Virus record (IMG/VR): IMGVR_UViG_3300006329_000045
Span: 1-41,818 of that record
From: a virus
Length of the DNA: 41,818 nucleotides
Direction: 5' to 3' (one strand)
Part shown: positions 1 through 39,992 of the stretch, piece after piece
How positions within the stretch are numbered: position 1 is the first letter of the stretch
Layout: the number at the start of each line of letters is the position of its first letter
Made by a program: the position numbers and the translations under genes
The notes under the pieces: generated by a model
What the model was told of the DNA's origin: nothing
Databases searched by the model: none
What the model saw: the letters and a program-made list of their open reading frames with translations, nothing else

Positions 1-2771
1 TTTATAGTAATAGTGTCATTTCCAACTGCCAATATTGGTATTATCTTATCATAAACATAATCAGCACCATTAGCAGTACCAGCGTTTACAGGACGTGGAT
101 AATACTTATCAGTAGTATTACCATCACTATTAAAATCACAAGTGAAAATTAATGATTCTTCCTTAAGTTTGATACTATCACTAGTAGTTAATCCATGTCC
201 AGCACCTATTGTTAATACAAGTTGACCTGTTGTAGGATTGTAAGTAGCATTAGTAACATCCTTGACATTTGCACTAAGTGATTCATAATTAGCAGTACCA
301 AATGTTATTGGTGCAACATCAGTAAACAATGCACCACCATCTAATCCATTGGTAGGATTTCTTGTTATCTTAACTCTCTTACCAAGTACTTCATGTACAA
401 AGTATATTCCACCATCTACAATGGCATCATTACCTGTACTTGCAACTGTATTACCTTGTTTGTAAATGTATATTGATGATCCTTTTCTTAAACCTTGATG
501 TACTACTCTACCAGTTCCTGTTTGATGTGCATGAACAACAGTAGATCTCTCTAGTTCAAAGGTAAATGAGTTATTAGTTACATTTGAAATAGGGAAGACA
601 TCTGGATTATCCTTAGCTGGATATGTCTTAGCACCATAAGAACAACTTGTTAATACATCTTTTATTTTAATTCTATTTTGGTCAGCATACTGAGCACCAT
701 CAGCAACAGTGATCTGTACAATACCAGTAGCTACATTATAATTAAATCCACTGATAGCTGTGGTGTCAGTATATGAAGGAGTTGTTGGAGTTGCACTTCC
801 ACCACTAACATAATGGTTTACAACTCTGACTGCACCTGCATTTGCGGTTGCATCAGCAACAAAGGCATGAGTTGTAGTATCTGTAATAGCACCTTGCCCG
901 TAGTCAGATCCAGAAACATTAACAGTAATTGTACCAGCACCTGTATCTACTGATTGTATTTGAATTTCTCTATTATAAACATAATCAGCACCACCATAAT
1001 CTACACCTGTAGCAGGATCTAAATCACCAGCAGTAGCTGCACCTGTTGCTCTTGGATATTTCTTAACAGAAGTATTACCATCACCATTAAAGTCACAAGT
1101 TAACCATATTGATTCTGGTTTTAATTTAATCCAATCACTAGTACTTAATGTTCCAGCAGCTGTAGTACCAATAGTAAGTACCATTGCACCACTAGTAGGG
1201 TTGTAAGATGCATTGGTTATATCAATTGTTGTATCACTTAACTCTGAAACAGCTGGTTTGCCTGGGAATATTTCAAATACTTTAGCACCTACAACACGCC
1301 TTACTATAAATGTGTCAGGACGATCTGTTTGTGGGAATGTTACACCACCACTTAAAGTAACAGATGATATTGTTACCTTATCACCTTCCTTTAATCCATG
1401 TGCAGCTACAGTAGTAACTCTAGCAACTCCTAAGTTATCTGGAGCTTGAGATCCATATTCAAAATTGTCTAAGTTTACTGAAGAACCTGTGGTTTCAGAA
1501 CTCCATCTACTGACTGTTCCACCACTAACATATGACTGAGAGAATGCTGCTTGTCCATTCAGAGCTGGATTCTGGTCATATACAGATTTACCTACAAATA
1601 CATTAAGAACATTAGTTGATGGTTTAGATTCAATTATGAATGTATCCTGAGCATACATGCTTGGATAGTTCTTAGTACCTGTATTACAGGTCATTAATAG
1701 GTCTCTTAAAGAAACACTATCACCATCTTTTAGACCATGATCACCGACTGTAGTAACAGATGCCCTACCAGTTGTATTATTATATGAGAATGTATTTACG
1801 TCTACTTCTATTGGATCTACTTCTAACCATTCACCTACTGATCCACTAATTTTAATTTCTCTCTTTTCTTTTAATAAGGATGCATCAAATAATCCAGCAT
1901 GGATATTAACTAATCCATCACGAATTATAACAGCATCACCAGCAGTATTTACGTTTACAGCACCTGTATTTTCACTACGTAATGGGAATAACTGTGGTAA
2001 TTGCATAATACCATAGTCATCATACTGATCAGAACCATAGTTAAATGGTGCTGAAGTAAAGAAACTTGGTCCTTTTTGTTGTGTTAATGACTGAGTTCTT
2101 CTTACACAACAGAAATTATCACCACGCCCTTCATTTATACTTTCATAATAGTATCCATCAAACTTATCAAATATACCATACTTCTTAACTGATGGATGTG
2201 ATACCTGCTTCTGTGGTTCAGAAACCTGATAATCTTCTTGGTTATTACCTGTAGGTTCATCAGTAGCACTGTTTAATACTGTATATGGTGCACGACCAAA
2301 CTTAACACCAAACGTACCAGCCGAAACACGACCTGGTTGGTATCTAAAGAATCTCTTAGAGGTTAATATAGCATACTCAGTTGCTGGTGCTTCTATATGG
2401 GCACCTGCTTCCGAAGGTACATGACTTAAACCCCAATCTTGTTGTCCTGGAATTCCAGTATATTCTACCTTATCTGAAGGTAATACTGTCTTTAACTGTA
2501 CTGGAGTAGCAGTCCACTCAGTTGGGTTAACATCATATGTGTTAACGTCAGCAAAGATACCTAAAGCAACTTCAGAACGTGGTATACCAAGTAAAGATAG
2601 AGCAACTTCAGATTGTTGTTTATTCTGTTCCTCAACGGGAATAGCAGATTGGTCACTTGCTATAACAACGGGAATTGATTTATCCGCTGATTGTTGCCCA
2701 GTAGGTACTGGAGCCGTTCTACCGACTACAACAACCGACGAATTATTATTAACATTAGTATTCTCAGGCAT
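1..2771 (-). CDS. Large virion structural (baseplate/tail-fibre) protein, 3' end outside window
   Basis: The reading frame is open from the ATG at 2769-2771 to the window edge, so at least 923 residues are present and the C-terminus is missing. The N-terminus carries the motif IPVVIASDQSAIPV, which recurs in phage structural proteins, followed by a section with KYGIFDKFDGYYYES. The rest is beta-rich and contains several copies of a module of about 60 residues with the pattern NAxYxPxTGxxxLTIG, then SIKLKxESLxFTCDF and a terminal YPR. The same module recurs in the fibre encoded at 6152-12610. It starts 4 bases after the stop of the fibre gene at 2776, so the two are co-transcribed. I infer a virion fibre or baseplate-periphery component. 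The exact T4 counterpart is not recognisable. Confidence 0.75.
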   Translation of the reverse strand, partial: MPENTNVNNNSSVVVVGRTAPVPTGQQSADKSIPVVIASDQSAIPVEEQNKQQSEVALSLLGIPRSEVALGIFADVNTYDVNPTEWTATPVQLKTVLPSDKVEYTGIPGQQDWGLSHVPSEAGAHIEAPATEYAILTSKRFFRYQPGRVSAGTFGVKFGRAPYTVLNSATDEPTGNNQEDYQVSEPQKQVSHPSVKKYGIFDKFDGYYYESINEGRGDNFCCVRRTQSLTQQKGPSFFTSAPFNYGSDQYDDYGIMQLPQLFPLRSENTGAVNVNTAGDAVIIRDGLVNIHAGLFDASLLKEKREIKISGSVGEWLEVDPIEVDVNTFSYNNTTGRASVTTVGDHGLKDGDSVSLRDLLMTCNTGTKNYPSMYAQDTFIIESKPSTNVLNVFVGKSVYDQNPALNGQAAFSQSYVSGGTVSRWSSETTGSSVNLDNFEYGSQAPDNLGVARVTTVAAHGLKEGDKVTISSVTLSGGVTFPQTDRPDTFIVRRVVGAKVFEIFPGKPAVSELSDTTIDITNASYNPTSGAMVLTIGTTAAGTLSTSDWIKLKPESIWLTCDFNGDGNTSVKKYPRATGAATAGDLDPATGVDYGGADYVYNREIQIQSVDTGAGTITVNVSGSDYGQGAITDTTTHAFVADATANAGAVRVVNHYVSGGSATPTTPSYTDTTAISGFNYNVATGIVQITVADGAQYADQNRIKIKDVLTSCSYGAKTYPAKDNPDVFPISNVTNNSFTFELERSTVVHAHQTGTGRVVHQGLRKGSSIYIYKQGNTVASTGNDAIVDGGIYFVHEVLGKRVKITRNPTNGLDGGALFTDVAPITFGTANYESLSANVKDVTNATYNPTTGQLVLTIGAGHGLTTSDSIKLKEESLIFTCDFNSDGNTTDKYYPRPVNAGTANGADYVYDKIIPILAVGNDTITI

Positions 2772-2775
2772 TGTT

Positions 2776-5700
2776 TTAAACTACTCCGATGACACCCTTG
2801 GCTATTGTGAAGTTTTTATCCTTCCTTATATATCCTCTAGCAGCAGCGTCAATATTTCCTTGGAAATTAACTATACTACTATTCAATGTATTTATGATAT
2901 AATTATTGAAGTCAGGTGAATAGAGATCCAACACGTATGACTGTGACTCAAATCTAATAGCAGATACTACTAAATTCTGAGGTAAACTATATCCAGTTTG
3001 AGGATTATGTTCTTGTAATGTAACTACATCATTAATAGCAAACTCACCAACATATGCTTGGTTAATTTGAATGACATAGAATTGATTTACTTCATCATAT
3101 CTTAGTACACCATCTATGATGTAATCATTTGCACCACCTATTGCAACCTTCTCTAATCCATTTAAGAAATAAACTAAGAAGTTATAATTAGGATTCCCTA
3201 CTGCAGAGTTAAATCTATAAGGAATATTATAAACTGCATCATTTTGATTAGGAGCACCTGGTGTTACAGCAGAAGGAATCTGAATCTGTACTATACCATC
3301 AGATCCATCCGATTCATATCCAGCAGATAGAACAGAAATATTACTACTTCCACCCTGTGACTGATATGTAATTGGACTACCAGTTAATATTTCATTACCT
3401 AAGTTATTAACTACTACTTTATAAACATAAGGATATAAAGTAACGTTAGTCATATCCTTAGCAACGTTCTGTTCAATGTATGTAAATTTAATTGGACCAC
3501 CAGTACCAGTACCAGTTGTTTTATCACATGTAATGTTAACTGAGTTAAAGTCACTATCGTAAATATCAGATGATGGAATCCACTCATCATCAGGACCAAG
3601 TATTAGATTATTCTCTACGTTAGCACTTCTAGAACCATAAGTTCTTAAACCACTACCAGAGTTTCTAATAATACATGAGTTAAATGCTACAACTTGAGTT
3701 GTAGTTATATCTGCTGGACCTGGATTACTTAAGAATGATGAGTCAGATACTTTAAGTACTATAGCATCAGTTGCTTGTAATGGATTATCAAAGGTTACAT
3801 ATGTAAGTGAGTTATCAAATACTGCTGTATTTTGTAATGAGAATCTAACAGCACTCTTAGCATATATTCCATCACCAACAGAGTTCTTAACATCAACACT
3901 CTCTATAGAACAGTTAACAGCATCTTCAAGATATACAAGTGTATTACCATCTGGTCTAGTACTATCACCTAACCTTAAATTACAATTATAATTACCATCA
4001 ACAACTAATGACTTAACACTACTATCTTTAATAGAAACAGATGTATTATCACTATAAAGATTAGTACCTGTAGTACGAACTCCATAACTACCAGCACTTC
4101 CCCATGGATTTCTCATCCAAATGGCAGAATAATATCTTGAATATTCTGGACTTGCAGTACCTTGATAGGTAGTATCGAAATATTGTTTCTTAATAACAGT
4201 TGCTTTACCAGATCCATTAAGGGAGAAGTTATCAGGTATAATAAAATTCTTAACGTGATAAGTTCCACCTAATAATAGTAATGAATTTAATCCTTTAGCG
4301 ATAACACTTTGTACAACTTTCTCAAGTGATGCAGTATCATCGTGTACAACTTGGATATTAGCGTTATTAAGATAAGAAGAGTTTAAGTTAGTATTATCAA
4401 ATAATGAATCACCTGCATCTGGATCTGTTACTGTAATAATATTATTATTTCTATCTACAGCAGCAACTTTACGTTCAGACCATCCAGGATAAGGACCAAA
4501 TGCATCAACAGTTGAAACTGCTAATTTACATGGTATAGTTTTAATTACTTGATATGTAGAACTATATGATGAATCAGAGTTCTTATCACCCCATGTAGTT
4601 CTATCATAAGGACCATAATCTCTATATGTGAATAAGATAGTAGTTGATGAACCAATATCTCTTTGTCCTAAGATTGCTATTAGGTTTAAATTCTGGAATA
4701 GATGATTAGGTATAGGTGTTCCATCTCTATCAATTACACCTTGTACATCACTTGTATAACGATATAACAATACACCATGGTTTGCATCAGGTCTGTATAT
4801 TGCAACACTGTTATATTTTTGTTCGTTAAATGAACTTAGAGAATCATTAGTAACATAATCTTGTGTATTAGTTGCACTATGTCTTAATTTCTTAAGTGAT
4901 GAAACAACTCCAGTTTTAAAGTTAAGTAATGCAGCATAATATGTGTAATTTATTGCTGCTGTAGCACTTGCACCTTGTGCTGAACAATAACTAGCAGATG
5001 CATCATCTATTTGCTGCTTCCAGTTGAAAAATACAGTAGTACCTGCAGTATTCTTATCATATTGTTCTATATTAGTTGTATTAATACCAAATATCTTTAC
5101 GTATTGTGGTACATCAGTACTATGTACAGAGAATGTGGCGACGTTATCTGTAGTTAATCTAAGTGTATTACCAGTACCACCTAAAGCATCTCTAGCACTT
5201 ATATCATATACCTTGGGGTCACCAGTTACACCAAAACCAGCAAGGTTACTAACGTCTCCTGGGTTATCTGTAAAGTATTCAAGTTCAGTACCTGCTTGAT
5301 TTACTCGTAATAACTGTTCTGGTTGACCTATTTGTGTTAGACCAATACCACCTTTAGCTGGTGTTACTACTGGGAAATCATTAAGAGTTAAATTCTGATA
5401 ACTTGTTGCTCTTATTGTACCATTAACATCGAGGGTTGCTAAAGGATTTGTAGTGTTGATACCTACTCGATTTTCATTACTTGGGTATGCACTTCCTGTT
5501 CCATCAATACTACGAACATTAAGAACTACATCACTACCAGTGTATATTTCTAATAAATTAGTTGCTCCACCAAATCTCATTGTGGAGGTTGATATATCAT
5601 ACCTTATTGCAGTATCATAATTTGCTGCTTCACTAAGAATCTTGATCTGTCTATTATTAAAAGTAACTTCAGTTGTAGATAATGTAAGTTGAGATGTACC

Positions 5701-13041: not shown

Positions 13042-13980
13042 TCAAATAAAGAGATCAGACAACCCTTGTTGTGGCGGTTCTTCTTCTGGTACACGATTCT
13101 TTATTAACTCACCATAATCTTCATGAAGTTCACATCCCATATAATATCTGTCATGTTGCTTTGCTACCATAGCAGTTGTACCTGATCCCATAAATGGGTC
13201 AAGAATAATATCACCAGGTTCAGAACCTGCTAGTATACATGGTTCAATCAACTCAGGAGGAAATACAGCAAAGTGTGCTCCCTTATATGGTTTCTTTGTT
13301 ACTGACCAAACAGATCGCTTATTCTTCCGTTCATATGACTTGGTAAGACCACTATGAGGAACCAAGCCACTGCCAGGATTATGATACTTACCATTGCTAC
13401 GGTCTCTTGTTCCCCAATCTTTTGCTGGTTCTTTGATTGCTTCATTGTTGTAATAATAATTCTTGTTCTTACTGAGTAGAAAAATATACTCATGTGCTTT
13501 AGTACATCTATCCTTTACTGACTCAGGCATAGGATTTGGTTTATGCCATATTATATCTTGTCTTAGATACCAACCATCAGCACGTAATGCAAATGCTAAC
13601 ATCCAAGGGATACCAATTAGATCCTTACTCTTTAATCCTTCTAACTTATTACCTCTAACTGGGGAGAATGAAGGTAAATCTTGATTAGTTTTACTTACTG
13701 TCTGTTTAGGATAGTTACCATCACTTCTATAATTGTAATAAGAATCTCCTATATTTACCCATAAAGTTCCATCATCAGTTAAATTATCTCTAACTAATCG
13801 GAATACTTCAACTAACTGTTGAATATATTCCTCTGGTGTCTGCTCCATACCTATTTGCTTCTCTTCCCCACCATAATCTCGGAGTCCATAATAAGGTGGA
13901 GATGTAACACACATTCGTGCTTCATCAATAAAAGCAGGTAATGTCTTTCTACAATCCCCAAAAAGGATAAGATCTTTCAC
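13042..13980 (-). CDS. DNA N4-cytosine/N6-adenine methyltransferase
   Basis: 312 residues, GTG start. Catalytic motif IV TSPPYY is at residues 26-31 and the AdoMet-binding motif DPFMGSGTT at 261-269. Motif IV before motif I is the beta-class order of the N6_N4_Mtase family. The SPPY form is often found in N4-cytosine enzymes, so cytosine N4 is slightly favoured, but base and target are not readable. No restriction endonuclease gene is adjacent, so it is probably an orphan enzyme that protects or marks phage DNA. The GTG overlaps the TGA of the 27-residue peptide upstream (GTGA), indicating translational coupling. The middle (about residues 95-215) is the probable target-recognition region. 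Confidence 0.93.
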   Translation of the reverse strand: MKDLILFGDCRKTLPAFIDEARMCVTSPPYYGLRDYGGEEKQIGMEQTPEEYIQQLVEVFRLVRDNLTDDGTLWVNIGDSYYNYRSDGNYPKQTVSKTNQDLPSFSPVRGNKLEGLKSKDLIGIPWMLAFALRADGWYLRQDIIWHKPNPMPESVKDRCTKAHEYIFLLSKNKNYYYNNEAIKEPAKDWGTRDRSNGKYHNPGSGLVPHSGLTKSYERKNKRSVWSVTKKPYKGAHFAVFPPELIEPCILAGSEPGDIILDPFMGSGTTAMVAKQHDRYYMGCELHEDYGELIKNRVPEEEPPQQGLSDLFI

Positions 13981-38252: not shown

Positions 38253-38536
38253 ATACCATTCCAAAATGTATCTGTTGGTGTCTGCATATTTCTTGAGATG
38301 AAATACAAACCTACGTTACATAGAAACCAATACAAATTAGTTATCCATGCTTGTCTCCAACAGTATTTTCTGTTGCTTTGCACAATGTATTGATTCCTCT
38401 CATTCATTGATGCATCAGCGGATAAAGGTCTGAACTTTAACCATTGTTCTAGTCCTAGTGAGATTAGAAATCCAACAGCAAAAATATAAAACAATAGGTT
38501 TAGTAAACCTGCCATTGAAAATAAAAATGGGATCAT
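38249..38536 (-). CDS. Two-span membrane protein
   Basis: 95 residues. Two transmembrane segments: MAGLLNLLFYIFAVGFLISL near the start and ITNLYWFLCNVGLYFIS near the end, with a polar loop (LSADASMNERNQYIVQSNRK) between. Its ATG overlaps the stop of the preceding gene and its own stop overlaps NdhS. It could be a membrane partner of the NdhS-like product, but this is only suggested by position. No family recognised. Confidence 0.68.
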   Translation of the reverse strand: MIPFLFSMAGLLNLLFYIFAVGFLISLGLEQWLKFRPLSADASMNERNQYIVQSNRKYCWRQAWITNLYWFLCNVGLYFISRNMQTPTDTFWNGI

Positions 38537-38835
38537 TAATCTCTTTGCCTCCAGTCGTCAGACCTTTCTTGATGAAACCATTCTACCACATCTTCTGGTT
38601 TTTGGAAACCCCTAGTATGTTTCCTTGGATCGGAGTTTCCTATGTCCAAGTACTTAAGAAAAGTTGAGTCGCTATCTGTTGATAATCTTCTTGCTGATGA
38701 TAACATCCCTCTTGCAGATGTATTTGCTTTTGCTAATTTCGTTGCCCATATCATATCTTCCATACTTACTTCTGTTCCTGATGCAATTGATTTGCAGATT
38801 TCTACTAACCGTAGACGATATGCGGTAGATAACAT
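38536..38835 (-). CDS. Hypothetical soluble protein
   Basis: 99 residues. Helical N-terminus (YRLRLVEICKSIASGTEVSM, EDMIWATKLAKAN), then an RxLSSARRL section and a hydrophilic end (GFQKPEDVVEWFHQERSDDW). It fits small cyanophage proteins of unknown role. The ribosome site is weak. It lies 46 bases after the 44-residue peptide gene. Confidence 0.6.
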   Translation of the reverse strand: MLSTAYRLRLVEICKSIASGTEVSMEDMIWATKLAKANTSARGMLSSARRLSTDSDSTFLKYLDIGNSDPRKHTRGFQKPEDVVEWFHQERSDDWRQRD

Positions 38836-38881: not shown

Positions 38882-39016
38882 TTAGTATTCGTTTGTTAGT
38901 TCTGCCTGACAAGGTGGTGTTGTTCTATGATAATTAACATGCATTAACTCTATGAATATAAGAGAACAAATCAATATCATATTGATCTGAAACAAAGGAT
39001 GCTTTAATAAATTCAT
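38882..39016 (-). CDS. 44-residue membrane peptide
   Basis: MNLLKHPLFQINMILICSLI then FIELMHVNYHRTTPPC: one transmembrane segment with a short outer tail. The ATG overlaps the stop of the 55-residue gene (ATGA), which supports coupled translation. Function unknown. Confidence 0.55.
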   Translation of the reverse strand: MNLLKHPLFQINMILICSLIFIELMHVNYHRTTPPCQAELTNEY

Positions 39017-39180
39017 TCTGGATATCCATCATCATCCTCCGACACACCTACACGAGGTCCTTCAGTTTGTTCATACCATGGGTGAACATATGCACTTGGA
39101 TCTGAATATACTTCGCTCTCTAATTCTTCTAGTAAAACTTTAAGATCCTTTACTATCTTTTTTAGGTTTCGCTTTTTCAT
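39013..39180 (-). CDS. 55-residue acidic protein
   Basis: Starts at ATG 39180 (MKKRNLKKIVKDLKVLLEEL); the longer frame would lie inside the neighbouring gene. Helical basic N-terminus, then acidic C-terminus with YVHPWYEQTEGPRVGVSEDD. It overlaps the genes on both sides. Function unknown. Confidence 0.55.
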   Translation of the reverse strand: MKKRNLKKIVKDLKVLLEELESEVYSDPSAYVHPWYEQTEGPRVGVSEDDDGYPE

Positions 39181-39289
39181 GATACTTAATTTGTTTAGCA
39201 TACCAAACTTCCTGTTCAGTATACCATTCTGGATGCTCTTTGGCAACCTTTATTAATTTCTTTGCTGCTTTCTTTGTTGATAAACTCAT
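39140..39289 (-). CDS. 49-residue basic protein
   Basis: MSLSTKKAAKKLIKVAKEHP then EWYTEQEVWYAKQIKYHEKA and a lysine-rich tail. The EHPEWYTEQEVWYAK segment is reminiscent of small cyanophage proteins. It overlaps the preceding gene by 4 bases (ATGA) and the following by 41. Function unknown. Confidence 0.55.
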   Translation of the reverse strand: MSLSTKKAAKKLIKVAKEHPEWYTEQEVWYAKQIKYHEKAKPKKDSKGS

Positions 39290-39405
39290 ATAATGCCTAA
39301 TGAACCTGCTGTTATACCAATACCTAACACCAATACAAATTCAAGTATCCCATGGGATGCAACTGGAATATTATTGACCTTGTAGATTAAATCTCTGGGG
39401 AGCAT
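39286..39405 (-). CDS. 39-residue membrane peptide
   Basis: MLPRDLIYKVNNIPVASHGI then LEFVLVLGIGITAGSLGII: a polar start and one hydrophobic C-terminal segment. Late box at 39434-39441 lies 29 bases upstream. It overlaps the next gene (ATGA). Confidence 0.55.
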   Translation of the reverse strand: MLPRDLIYKVNNIPVASHGILEFVLVLGIGITAGSLGII

Positions 39406-39433
39406 TGCTATGATTGTAAAGTTGTGTTACAAG

Positions 39434-39441
39434 TATTTATA
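39434..39441 (-). promoter_or_regulatory. T4-type late promoter box TATAAATA
   Basis: Minus strand box just after the 26-residue peptide gene and before the 39-residue gene; it would add late transcription to the small-gene operon. Confidence 0.65.
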
Positions 39442-39446
39442 AAACT

Positions 39447-39527
39447 TTACGCAAACACTACTCTCTGTACAACATCACCATAGTATGTGTATACAAGTAA
39501 GATACTAACGAATAAAAAATGCTGCAT
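39447..39527 (-). CDS. 26-residue membrane peptide
   Basis: MQHFLFVSILLVYTYYGDVV then QRVVFA: one short hydrophobic segment, aromatic-rich. It is the first frame after the composite promoter at 39553-39581. The ribosome site is weak, so translation is moderately supported. Confidence 0.45.
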   Translation of the reverse strand: MQHFLFVSILLVYTYYGDVVQRVVFA

Positions 39528-39552
39528 TGACTTAGGTAAATATACTTACAGT

Positions 39553-39581
39553 ATTATATAGGTATTTATACTCTTTGTCAA
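39553..39581 (-). promoter_or_regulatory. Perfect consensus promoter with embedded late box
   Basis: Minus strand TTGACA (39576-39581), 17-base spacer, TATAAT (39553-39558). The spacer also contains a late TATAAATA box (39563-39570). The -35 overlaps the TGA of the gene upstream. It should drive the small-gene operon early and late. Confidence 0.85.
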
Positions 39582-39721
39582 CAGTTCTCTTCTTCGTAGT
39601 ACTTTAGTTTGTGTAAAAGTTTATTGGTTTCGAGAAAACTCTCTCCATCCGTTATGATATTTTTATAATACTCACATGCCTTGACCATTTTATCAATTTC
39701 TTTTTTATTAAAGTGGATCAT
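39578..39721 (-). CDS. Small acidic/basic helical protein
   Basis: 47 residues from ATG 39721 (MIHFNKKEIDKMVKACEYY...). AAGGA lies 7 bases before this ATG. An ATG seven codons earlier (39742) abuts the TATAAT of the promoter at 39743-39770, so it should not be on the transcript. The sequence is helical and ends KLLHKLKYYEEENC. Function unknown. Confidence 0.6.
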   Translation of the reverse strand: MIHFNKKEIDKMVKACEYYKNIITDGESFLETNKLLHKLKYYEEENC

Positions 39722-39742
39722 AATGTTATCCTTGTCTTCCAT

Positions 39743-39770
39743 ATTATATAACAAAAAAAGAGGGTGTCAA
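39743..39770 (-). promoter_or_regulatory. Sigma70-type promoter, -35 inside a terminator hairpin
   Basis: Minus strand TTGACA (39765-39770), 16-base spacer, TATAAT (39743-39748). The -35 is the loop and stem base pairs of the terminator at 39753-39779. Confidence 0.75.
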
Positions 39771-39779
39771 GCACCCTCT
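39753..39779 (-). terminator. Rho-independent terminator
   Basis: Minus strand stem AGAGGGTG/CACCCTCT, loop CTTGA, seven T. Nearly identical in sequence to the terminator at 35691-35716. Confidence 0.9.
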
Positions 39780-39783
39780 GACT

Positions 39784-39870
39784 TTATTTTCCATACAGGA
39801 ATTGAACTTCAGCAGTTATGATTGTGAGAAAGATAGCAGATGCTACCATAATCTCAATAACTTCAATCAC
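39784..39870 (-). CDS. 28-residue membrane peptide
   Basis: GTG start at 39870 overlaps the stop of the DUF4278-like gene (GTGA). The peptide reads MIEVIEIMVASAIFLTIITA then EVQFLYGK: one transmembrane segment. Its MIE start resembles the two MIE proteins at 40036 and 40263. Translation is inferred from coupling only. Confidence 0.45.
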   Translation of the reverse strand: MIEVIEIMVASAIFLTIITAEVQFLYGK

Positions 39871-39992
39871 TTAGTACTTGTAAGTTCTTTTTCTAATCTT
39901 ACACCACGGTAAGTTAAATCGACCTTGCTTGATTGCTGATCTTTGTTCCTGTCGGTGTCATACTTAACACCACGGTATGTGACTTGTGCCAT
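39867..39992 (-). CDS. DUF4278-like small protein
   Basis: 41 residues from ATG 39992 with AGGAG before it. Two YRGV motifs (VTYRGVKYDTD and LTYRGVRLE) separated by a polar linker fit the DUF4278 family of cyanobacteria and cyanophages, whose members read MxLxYRGxxYD. Function unknown. The longer frame upstream would run into the repeat and the neighbouring gene. Confidence 0.7.
   Translation of the reverse strand: MAQVTYRGVKYDTDRNKDQQSSKVDLTYRGVRLEKELTSTK

Follow-up and report, generated by a model that had tools for sequence, protein, structure and literature searches.

A T4-like cyanophage with mosaic small-gene modules encodes candidate host-type one-span membrane peptides

Genes and transcription signals of the minus-strand cluster

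The stretch of DNA analyzed here (the window) comprises 41,818 bases and is recorded as a linear virus. Among phage records it comes nearest to T4-like cyanophages, chiefly the Prochlorococcus phages P-HM2, P-HM1 and MED4-213, and it represents part of the genome of such a phage related to P-HM1 and P-HM2. It encodes PhoH and thymidylate synthase, and the sequence and location of one further protein (phrog_17328, a PHROG without a name) lead us to read it provisionally as a heme oxygenase. The IMG/VR contig L003 is nearly identical to the window across the region described below.

A cluster of small genes on the minus strand is transcribed in the order DUF4278 gene, m28, s47, m26, m39, b49, a55, m44 and p99. 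The DUF4278 gene (39867-39992; 41 residues beginning MAQVTYRG; Pfam DUF4278, E = 4.4e-6) is the upstream partner of m28 (39784-39870), which has a GTG start and encodes a 28-residue one-span membrane peptide. Next come s47 (39578-39721; 47 residues, phrog_5190, E = 2.6e-8) and m26 (39447-39527), a 26-residue hydrophobic peptide that is the weakest of the set. They are followed by m39 (39286-39405), a 39-residue one-span membrane peptide of phrog_17067 and the T4-GC 594/554 family, by the basic 49-residue b49 (39140-39289; phrog_14921, E = 1.7e-16) and the acidic 55-residue a55 (39013-39180; phrog_878, E = 6e-20), and by m44 (38882-39016), a 44-residue one-span membrane peptide in which HP, IE, H, H and C are conserved. 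The s47, b49 and a55 products are soluble. Directly 3' of the cluster lies p99 (38536-38835), a conserved 99-residue protein (phrog_507, E = 5e-41) with relatives in 584 IMG/VR stretches. We take s47 to begin at MIHF. An upstream ATG at 39742, which would give 54 residues, was rejected as unlikely because it directly follows a -10 box and because relatives in L106, L107 and other contigs align from MIHF.

The initial annotation of this DNA had placed at least five frames of 26-55 residues between 39870 and 38882 and had read those of 28, 26, 39 and 44 residues as one-span peptides. All of the frames it named were found on the minus strand, and the maximum 19-residue Kyte-Doolittle values agree with its reading: the hydrophobicity expected of one span is clear for m28 (2.1), m39 (2.1) and m44 (1.9), and borderline for m26 (1.2). 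The proposal that the frames form a chain linked by ATGA/GTGA overlaps held only in part. Overlaps of 4 bp occur at just three junctions (GTGA at DUF4278/m28, ATGA at m39/b49 and at a55/m44), b49 and a55 overlap by 41 bp, and a terminator and promoters lie inside the series.

The first of these signals is a fused terminator-promoter, AGAGGGTGCTTGACACCCTCTTTTTTTGTTATATAAT, at 39743-39779 on the minus strand between m28 and s47. It consists of the hairpin AGAGGGTGCTTGACACCCTCT and a T run. A TTGACA box (39770-39765) lies within the hairpin and is separated by 16 bp from TATAAT (39748-39743), so that the T run belongs to the promoter spacer. At least 119 IMG/VR stretches contain the pattern GGGTGCTTGACACCC-N(8-18)-TATAAT, and we read 80 of these contigs (L503-L582), which hold 81 copies. 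The pattern permits 11 spacer lengths (11-21 bp), yet all 81 copies have spacers of 16 bp (28 copies) or 17 bp (53 copies), and 78 of the 81 carry a T run of five or more. The confinement of the spacer to 16-17 bp is strong evidence that promoter function is selected jointly with the terminator. Elsewhere in the window, a second copy lies at 35716-35679 (minus strand) with TATTAT as its -10 box. We found no paper on fused terminator-promoters in cyanophages in a partial sample of the open literature.

Between s47 and m26 lies a perfect sigma-70 promoter, TTGACA-17-TATAAT (39553-39581, minus strand). L106 and L107 share this layout, and in both of these lineages, as in the window, the -35 box contains the s47 stop codon. 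Exact matches to TTGACA-N(15-19)-TATAAT number three in the whole window against 0.18 expected, and two of the three fall within the cluster. The octamer TATAAATA, which resembles a T4 late promoter, precedes m39 at 39434-39441 (minus strand) and does likewise in L106 and L107; it also occurs at 39570-39563 (minus strand), inside the spacer of the s47/m26 promoter. Across the whole window this octamer is not enriched.

Because a terminator and promoter separate m28 from s47, and a consensus promoter separates s47 from m26, the cluster comprises several transcription units. The terminator-promoter at 39779-39743 and the promoter at 39581-39553 thus rule out a single translationally coupled operon. 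The layout is DUF4278-m28, terminator and promoter, s47, promoter, m26, and then m39-b49-a55-m44. Transcription of the cluster would accordingly start at two or more internal promoters of host type, including the one joined to the terminator that ends the unit before it, and the late-type sites may add to the expression of m26 and m39. In other phages the gene families occur as separate modules, and the window combines pieces of those modules in an arrangement similar to that of L106 and L107. The cluster region is best explained as a mosaic of small-gene modules.

Upstream of the cluster, a motif of the form GGACGCAA..GCCGACT..GGAACGGG precedes two genes (40273-40247 and 40053-40027, minus strand), giving two occurrences in the window where none is expected. 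An Rfam search of the window returned one match, far below threshold, and none for this motif. Similar motifs stand before genes in 29 phage contigs, mostly before a DUF4278 gene among the examples listed, and the motif is a possible mRNA leader element.

Conservation of m28, m39 and m44 in phages

We searched IMG/VR with family alignments and read up to 80 stretches per search. Relatives were found in 245 stretches for m39, 200 for m28 and 107 for m44. In the loci read, pooled pN/pS was 0.24 for m39, 0.23 for m44 and 0.21 for m28, compared with 0.34 for the DUF4278 gene, 0.17 for a55 and 0.38 for b49; these values are descriptive only, because comparisons between members of one family are interdependent. 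m28, m39 and m44 are thus conserved genes that are kept intact in phages under purifying selection at the codon level.

Frames this short, joined to their neighbors by stop-start overlaps, could in principle be translated leaders or spacers that couple downstream genes, or chance frames, with the amino acid sequence being incidental. For m26 the conservation is indeed positional: the window, L106 and L107 all run from s47 through the promoter and a hydrophobic frame of 26 residues to m39, so that length and place are kept in two other lineages, both of them phage contigs, and neither m26 nor its L106 relative had a tblastn match in phage records. The other peptides behave differently. Their amino acids are conserved across contigs with an excess of synonymous change, and the m39 peptide is retained while its neighbors change, following T4-GC 273/437 and the high-light-inducible (hli) genes in the majority of phages, lying between s47 and b49 in the window, and found in hli arrays or elsewhere in hosts. 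Hundreds of conserved frames, together with the pooled pN/pS values, rule out chance open reading frames, and the leader or chance reading is refuted by conservation for m28, m39 and m44. For the cluster as a whole we consider it very improbable. Loss of the reading frame in relatives would have counted against the initial annotation, and homologous frames are instead present across hundreds of marine contigs.

In phages, m28 has a constant upstream neighbor. The DUF4278 gene lies immediately 5' of it in 79 of 84 loci, and the m28 start, GTG or ATG, overlaps the DUF4278 stop by 4 bp in 77 of 81. The next gene is a55 in 60 of the 84 loci, with thymidylate synthase and phoH close by. A different setting is typical of m39, which matched 27 phage records: T4-GC 273 or 437 precedes it in 77 of 106 loci, and several isolate genomes carry an hli cluster, then m39, then psbA, ferredoxin or a carboxylesterase. 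In 62 loci the sequence upstream of m39 extends for 1.5 kb or more, and 49 of these have hli no farther upstream than 1.5 kb; seven other families from the same loci (DUF4278, p99, nrdC, DUF680, a55, m28 and m44) have hli at that distance in zero or one locus each. The m39 gene of the window has no hli nearby. As for m44, it is 73% identical to the 46-residue P-HM2 gene PHM2_230, DUF680 precedes it in 68 of 104 phage loci, and hli03 follows in 28 of 104.

Pfam and NCBIfam gave no match for m28, m39, m44 or their host relatives, including no known family of small photosystem or NDH subunits, and a PHROG search gave none for m28 or m26. Such genes were expected to be missed by the usual length limits, and this is borne out by phage records: m28 lacks annotation in P-HM1, P-HM2 and MED4-213, and m39, annotated as T4-GC 554 or 594 in P-HM1, P-HM2 and P-SSM2, lacks it in P-TIM68, P-SSM7, P-RSM1, metaG-MbCM1 and S-SSM7. 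In P-HM2 the m28 frame occupies 161041-161124, and m39 is the gene PHM2_203.

Host relatives and their gene neighborhoods

By sequence likeness, Prochlorococcus encodes members of the m28 and m39 families as well. A host relative of m28, MLAISEIIIASAIFLGIIYWEVKFLYAKT, is 61% identical to the window peptide, and within one Prochlorococcus genus 48 of 61 genomes have a single-copy relative with a strong E-value. The 24 host loci read all place m28 less than 2 kb from a DUF3104 gene, an NDH-subunit-5-like gene and the gene for the plastoquinol terminal oxidase, PTOX (Pfam AOX, E = 2e-16). Within a family-wide sample of 201 genomes, nine have a strong m28 match, and PTOX is present and adjacent in all nine; three further genomes of this sample carry weaker m28-like genes and have no PTOX match. 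A phylum-wide genome sample added no match from other groups. Apart from the three weaker matches, which belong to the same family, the observed range of m28 is one Prochlorococcus genus. The subunit-5-like protein, a 144-residue membrane protein (920-1354, minus strand, in locus L449), resembles NAD(P)H-quinone oxidoreductase subunit 5 in the N-terminal region only, and its gene is convergent with PTOX. In 3 of the 24 loci, a relative of p99 (5133-5432 in L453) adjoins PTOX.

The m39 profile matched Prochlorococcus chromosomes at 81 loci when one genome per species was sampled. Within one Prochlorococcus genus, 51 of 61 genomes have relatives with strong E-values, and across the family 45 of 121 genomes have a relative; two copies are frequent. 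About 30 host loci share hli and GC437 with the phage arrangement, and strain MIT 9302 has the phage gene order itself (hli, GC437-like, m39, hli). A second, shorter class of m39 is located elsewhere, and hli is absent near most of its copies. In a tree of m39 built on only 28 columns, the host copies linked to hli group with the phages; support for this is weak, and the tree does not give the direction of transfer. We also considered whether m39 is a degenerate Hli protein and rejected this, since hhalign assigned a probability of 2.4% against the Hli profile, with m28 and m44 controls near zero.

Host relatives of m44 are weak, with E-values of about 1e-3 in 21 of 61 Prochlorococcus genomes, and this family may also be encoded by Prochlorococcus. 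In strain MIT 9314, three genes in a row encode an m39 copy (1112-1216 in L384), an m44-like peptide (1908-2114) and GAPDH (2569-3594).

Candidate roles and related systems

Host takeover was one of the roles initially suggested for these peptides, and in T4-type phages small membrane proteins are known to act in superinfection exclusion, membrane depolarization or the timing of lysis. The cluster lies among small phage genes without assigned function and carries consensus host-type (early) promoters, and m26 has relatives in phage contigs only, all of which would suit phage-specific peptides of this kind. Yet intact relatives of m28 and m39 are found in most sampled genomes of the host genus, which is not expected of phage poisons, and the host m28 is a single-copy gene at one conserved locus. 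Takeover by phage-only peptides is disfavored for m28 and m39 because the hosts keep the same genes, and we consider it improbable for the set.

The host neighborhoods point to a different role. We consider it slightly better than even that the cluster is a small-gene mosaic whose host-type one-span peptides act on photosynthetic electron transport or photoprotection during infection, and the data suggest that the phage may have taken m28 and m39 from Prochlorococcus to sustain photosynthesis in the infected cell. The peptides would reside in the thylakoid (or plasma) membrane and serve electron-transport or photoprotection complexes there, either as small accessory subunits or as factors for assembly or stability; the phage would supplement the cell's supply of them, just as it supplements PsbA and Hli. 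On gene context, m39 would act in photoprotection with Hli and m28 in a plastoquinol outlet with PTOX and NDH. This reading fits transcriptome data, since host hli and PTOX transcripts increase during P-HM2 infection (PMC5082946). P-HM2 carries m28 and has no PTOX gene of its own (PMC3037559), so phage-made m28 could, speculatively, act on the host PTOX. Several observations count against these assignments: the PTOX and hli contexts both come from one host genus and could be inherited synteny, the three genomes with weaker m28-like genes show no PTOX match, and in phages m28 adjoins DUF4278 and thymidylate synthase. Further points on this side are that hli is missing near most short-class m39 copies of hosts and near the m39 of the window, that no known thylakoid subunit is matched, that m26 has no independent conservation, and that the host relative of m44 is weak.

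The peptides could instead be general membrane-stress or quality-control factors that stabilize the cytoplasmic or thylakoid membrane with no specific photosynthetic partner. In keeping with this, hli genes respond to other stresses as well (PMC2518516), the m39 profile does not match Hli, and the peptides bear no likeness to known small photosystem or NDH subunits. Against it, two independent contexts, hli and PTOX/NDH-like, point to photosynthesis and electron flow; neither separates the readings directly. We regard the stress explanation as unlikely. The initial suggestion that the peptides act on thylakoid or plasma membrane complexes gains indirect support from the hli arrays around m39 and the PTOX/NDH-like neighbors of m28, but not from any subunit family. 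A more specific form of the electron-transport and photoprotection reading is less likely than not: m28, at the PTOX/NDH outlet, and m39, in Hli-assisted photosystem repair, might be unrecognized photosynthetic subunits or regulators, in which case phages would carry minimal one-helix modules besides whole enzymes as a means of retuning the thylakoid.

The small subunits of photosystems, cytochrome b6f and NDH-1 are likewise short and of one-span design. m28, m39 and m44 resemble them in length and in the single span; unlike those universal subunits, m28 is confined to the Prochlorococcus genus and the three weaker matches in its family. Cyanophage auxiliary genes such as hli, psbA and PTOX were described by Sullivan 2010 (PMC3037559). 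m39 is like these in being host-type and located in an hli cassette, whereas m28, m39 and m44 have no sequence match to those families.

Small open reading frames common to Prochlorococcus MED4 and cyanophages were reported by Steglich 2008 (PMC2518516), which names PMED4_15491/PSSM2_278, PMED4_10681 and PMED4_16122. Like these, m28 and m39 are short, mostly unannotated and present in both host and phage. The three named frames belong to families other than m28, m39 and m44, PSSM2_278 being T4-GC 273, the commonest family immediately upstream of m39. At 28-29 residues, m28 falls below the 33-130 residue range given in that study, and m39 might be tabulated unnamed in its supplement. A partial sample of the open literature that excluded this supplement yielded no paper dealing with m28, m39 or m44 themselves, and the same kind of sample yielded none on tiny membrane peptides in cyanophages. 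Small frames shared by host and phage are thus a known kind, and m28, m39 and m44 are apparently undescribed.

The effects of cyanophages on photosynthesis are usually assessed from annotated genes. If the peptides do act on PTOX or Hli complexes, a viral layer of control over ocean photosynthesis would be missing from gene tables, and the very small Prochlorococcus genome would retain widely conserved, photosynthesis-linked peptides for which we found no description. The host copies allow tests in laboratory cyanobacteria that need no genetic system for the phage.

Two further tiny frames had been pointed out in the window, at 13977 and 36257. The 35-residue hydrophobic frame at 36364-36257 (minus strand) had no match in phage records and may be a chance frame. 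The other, a 27-residue one-span peptide, MNNIGLEVVFWTVLSIYLLAKLGVFKK (14060-13977, minus strand), is a real gene next to one that resembles a DNA methyltransferase; 43 cyanophage records contain matches, of which 16 have 80-90% identity and the best has 89%.
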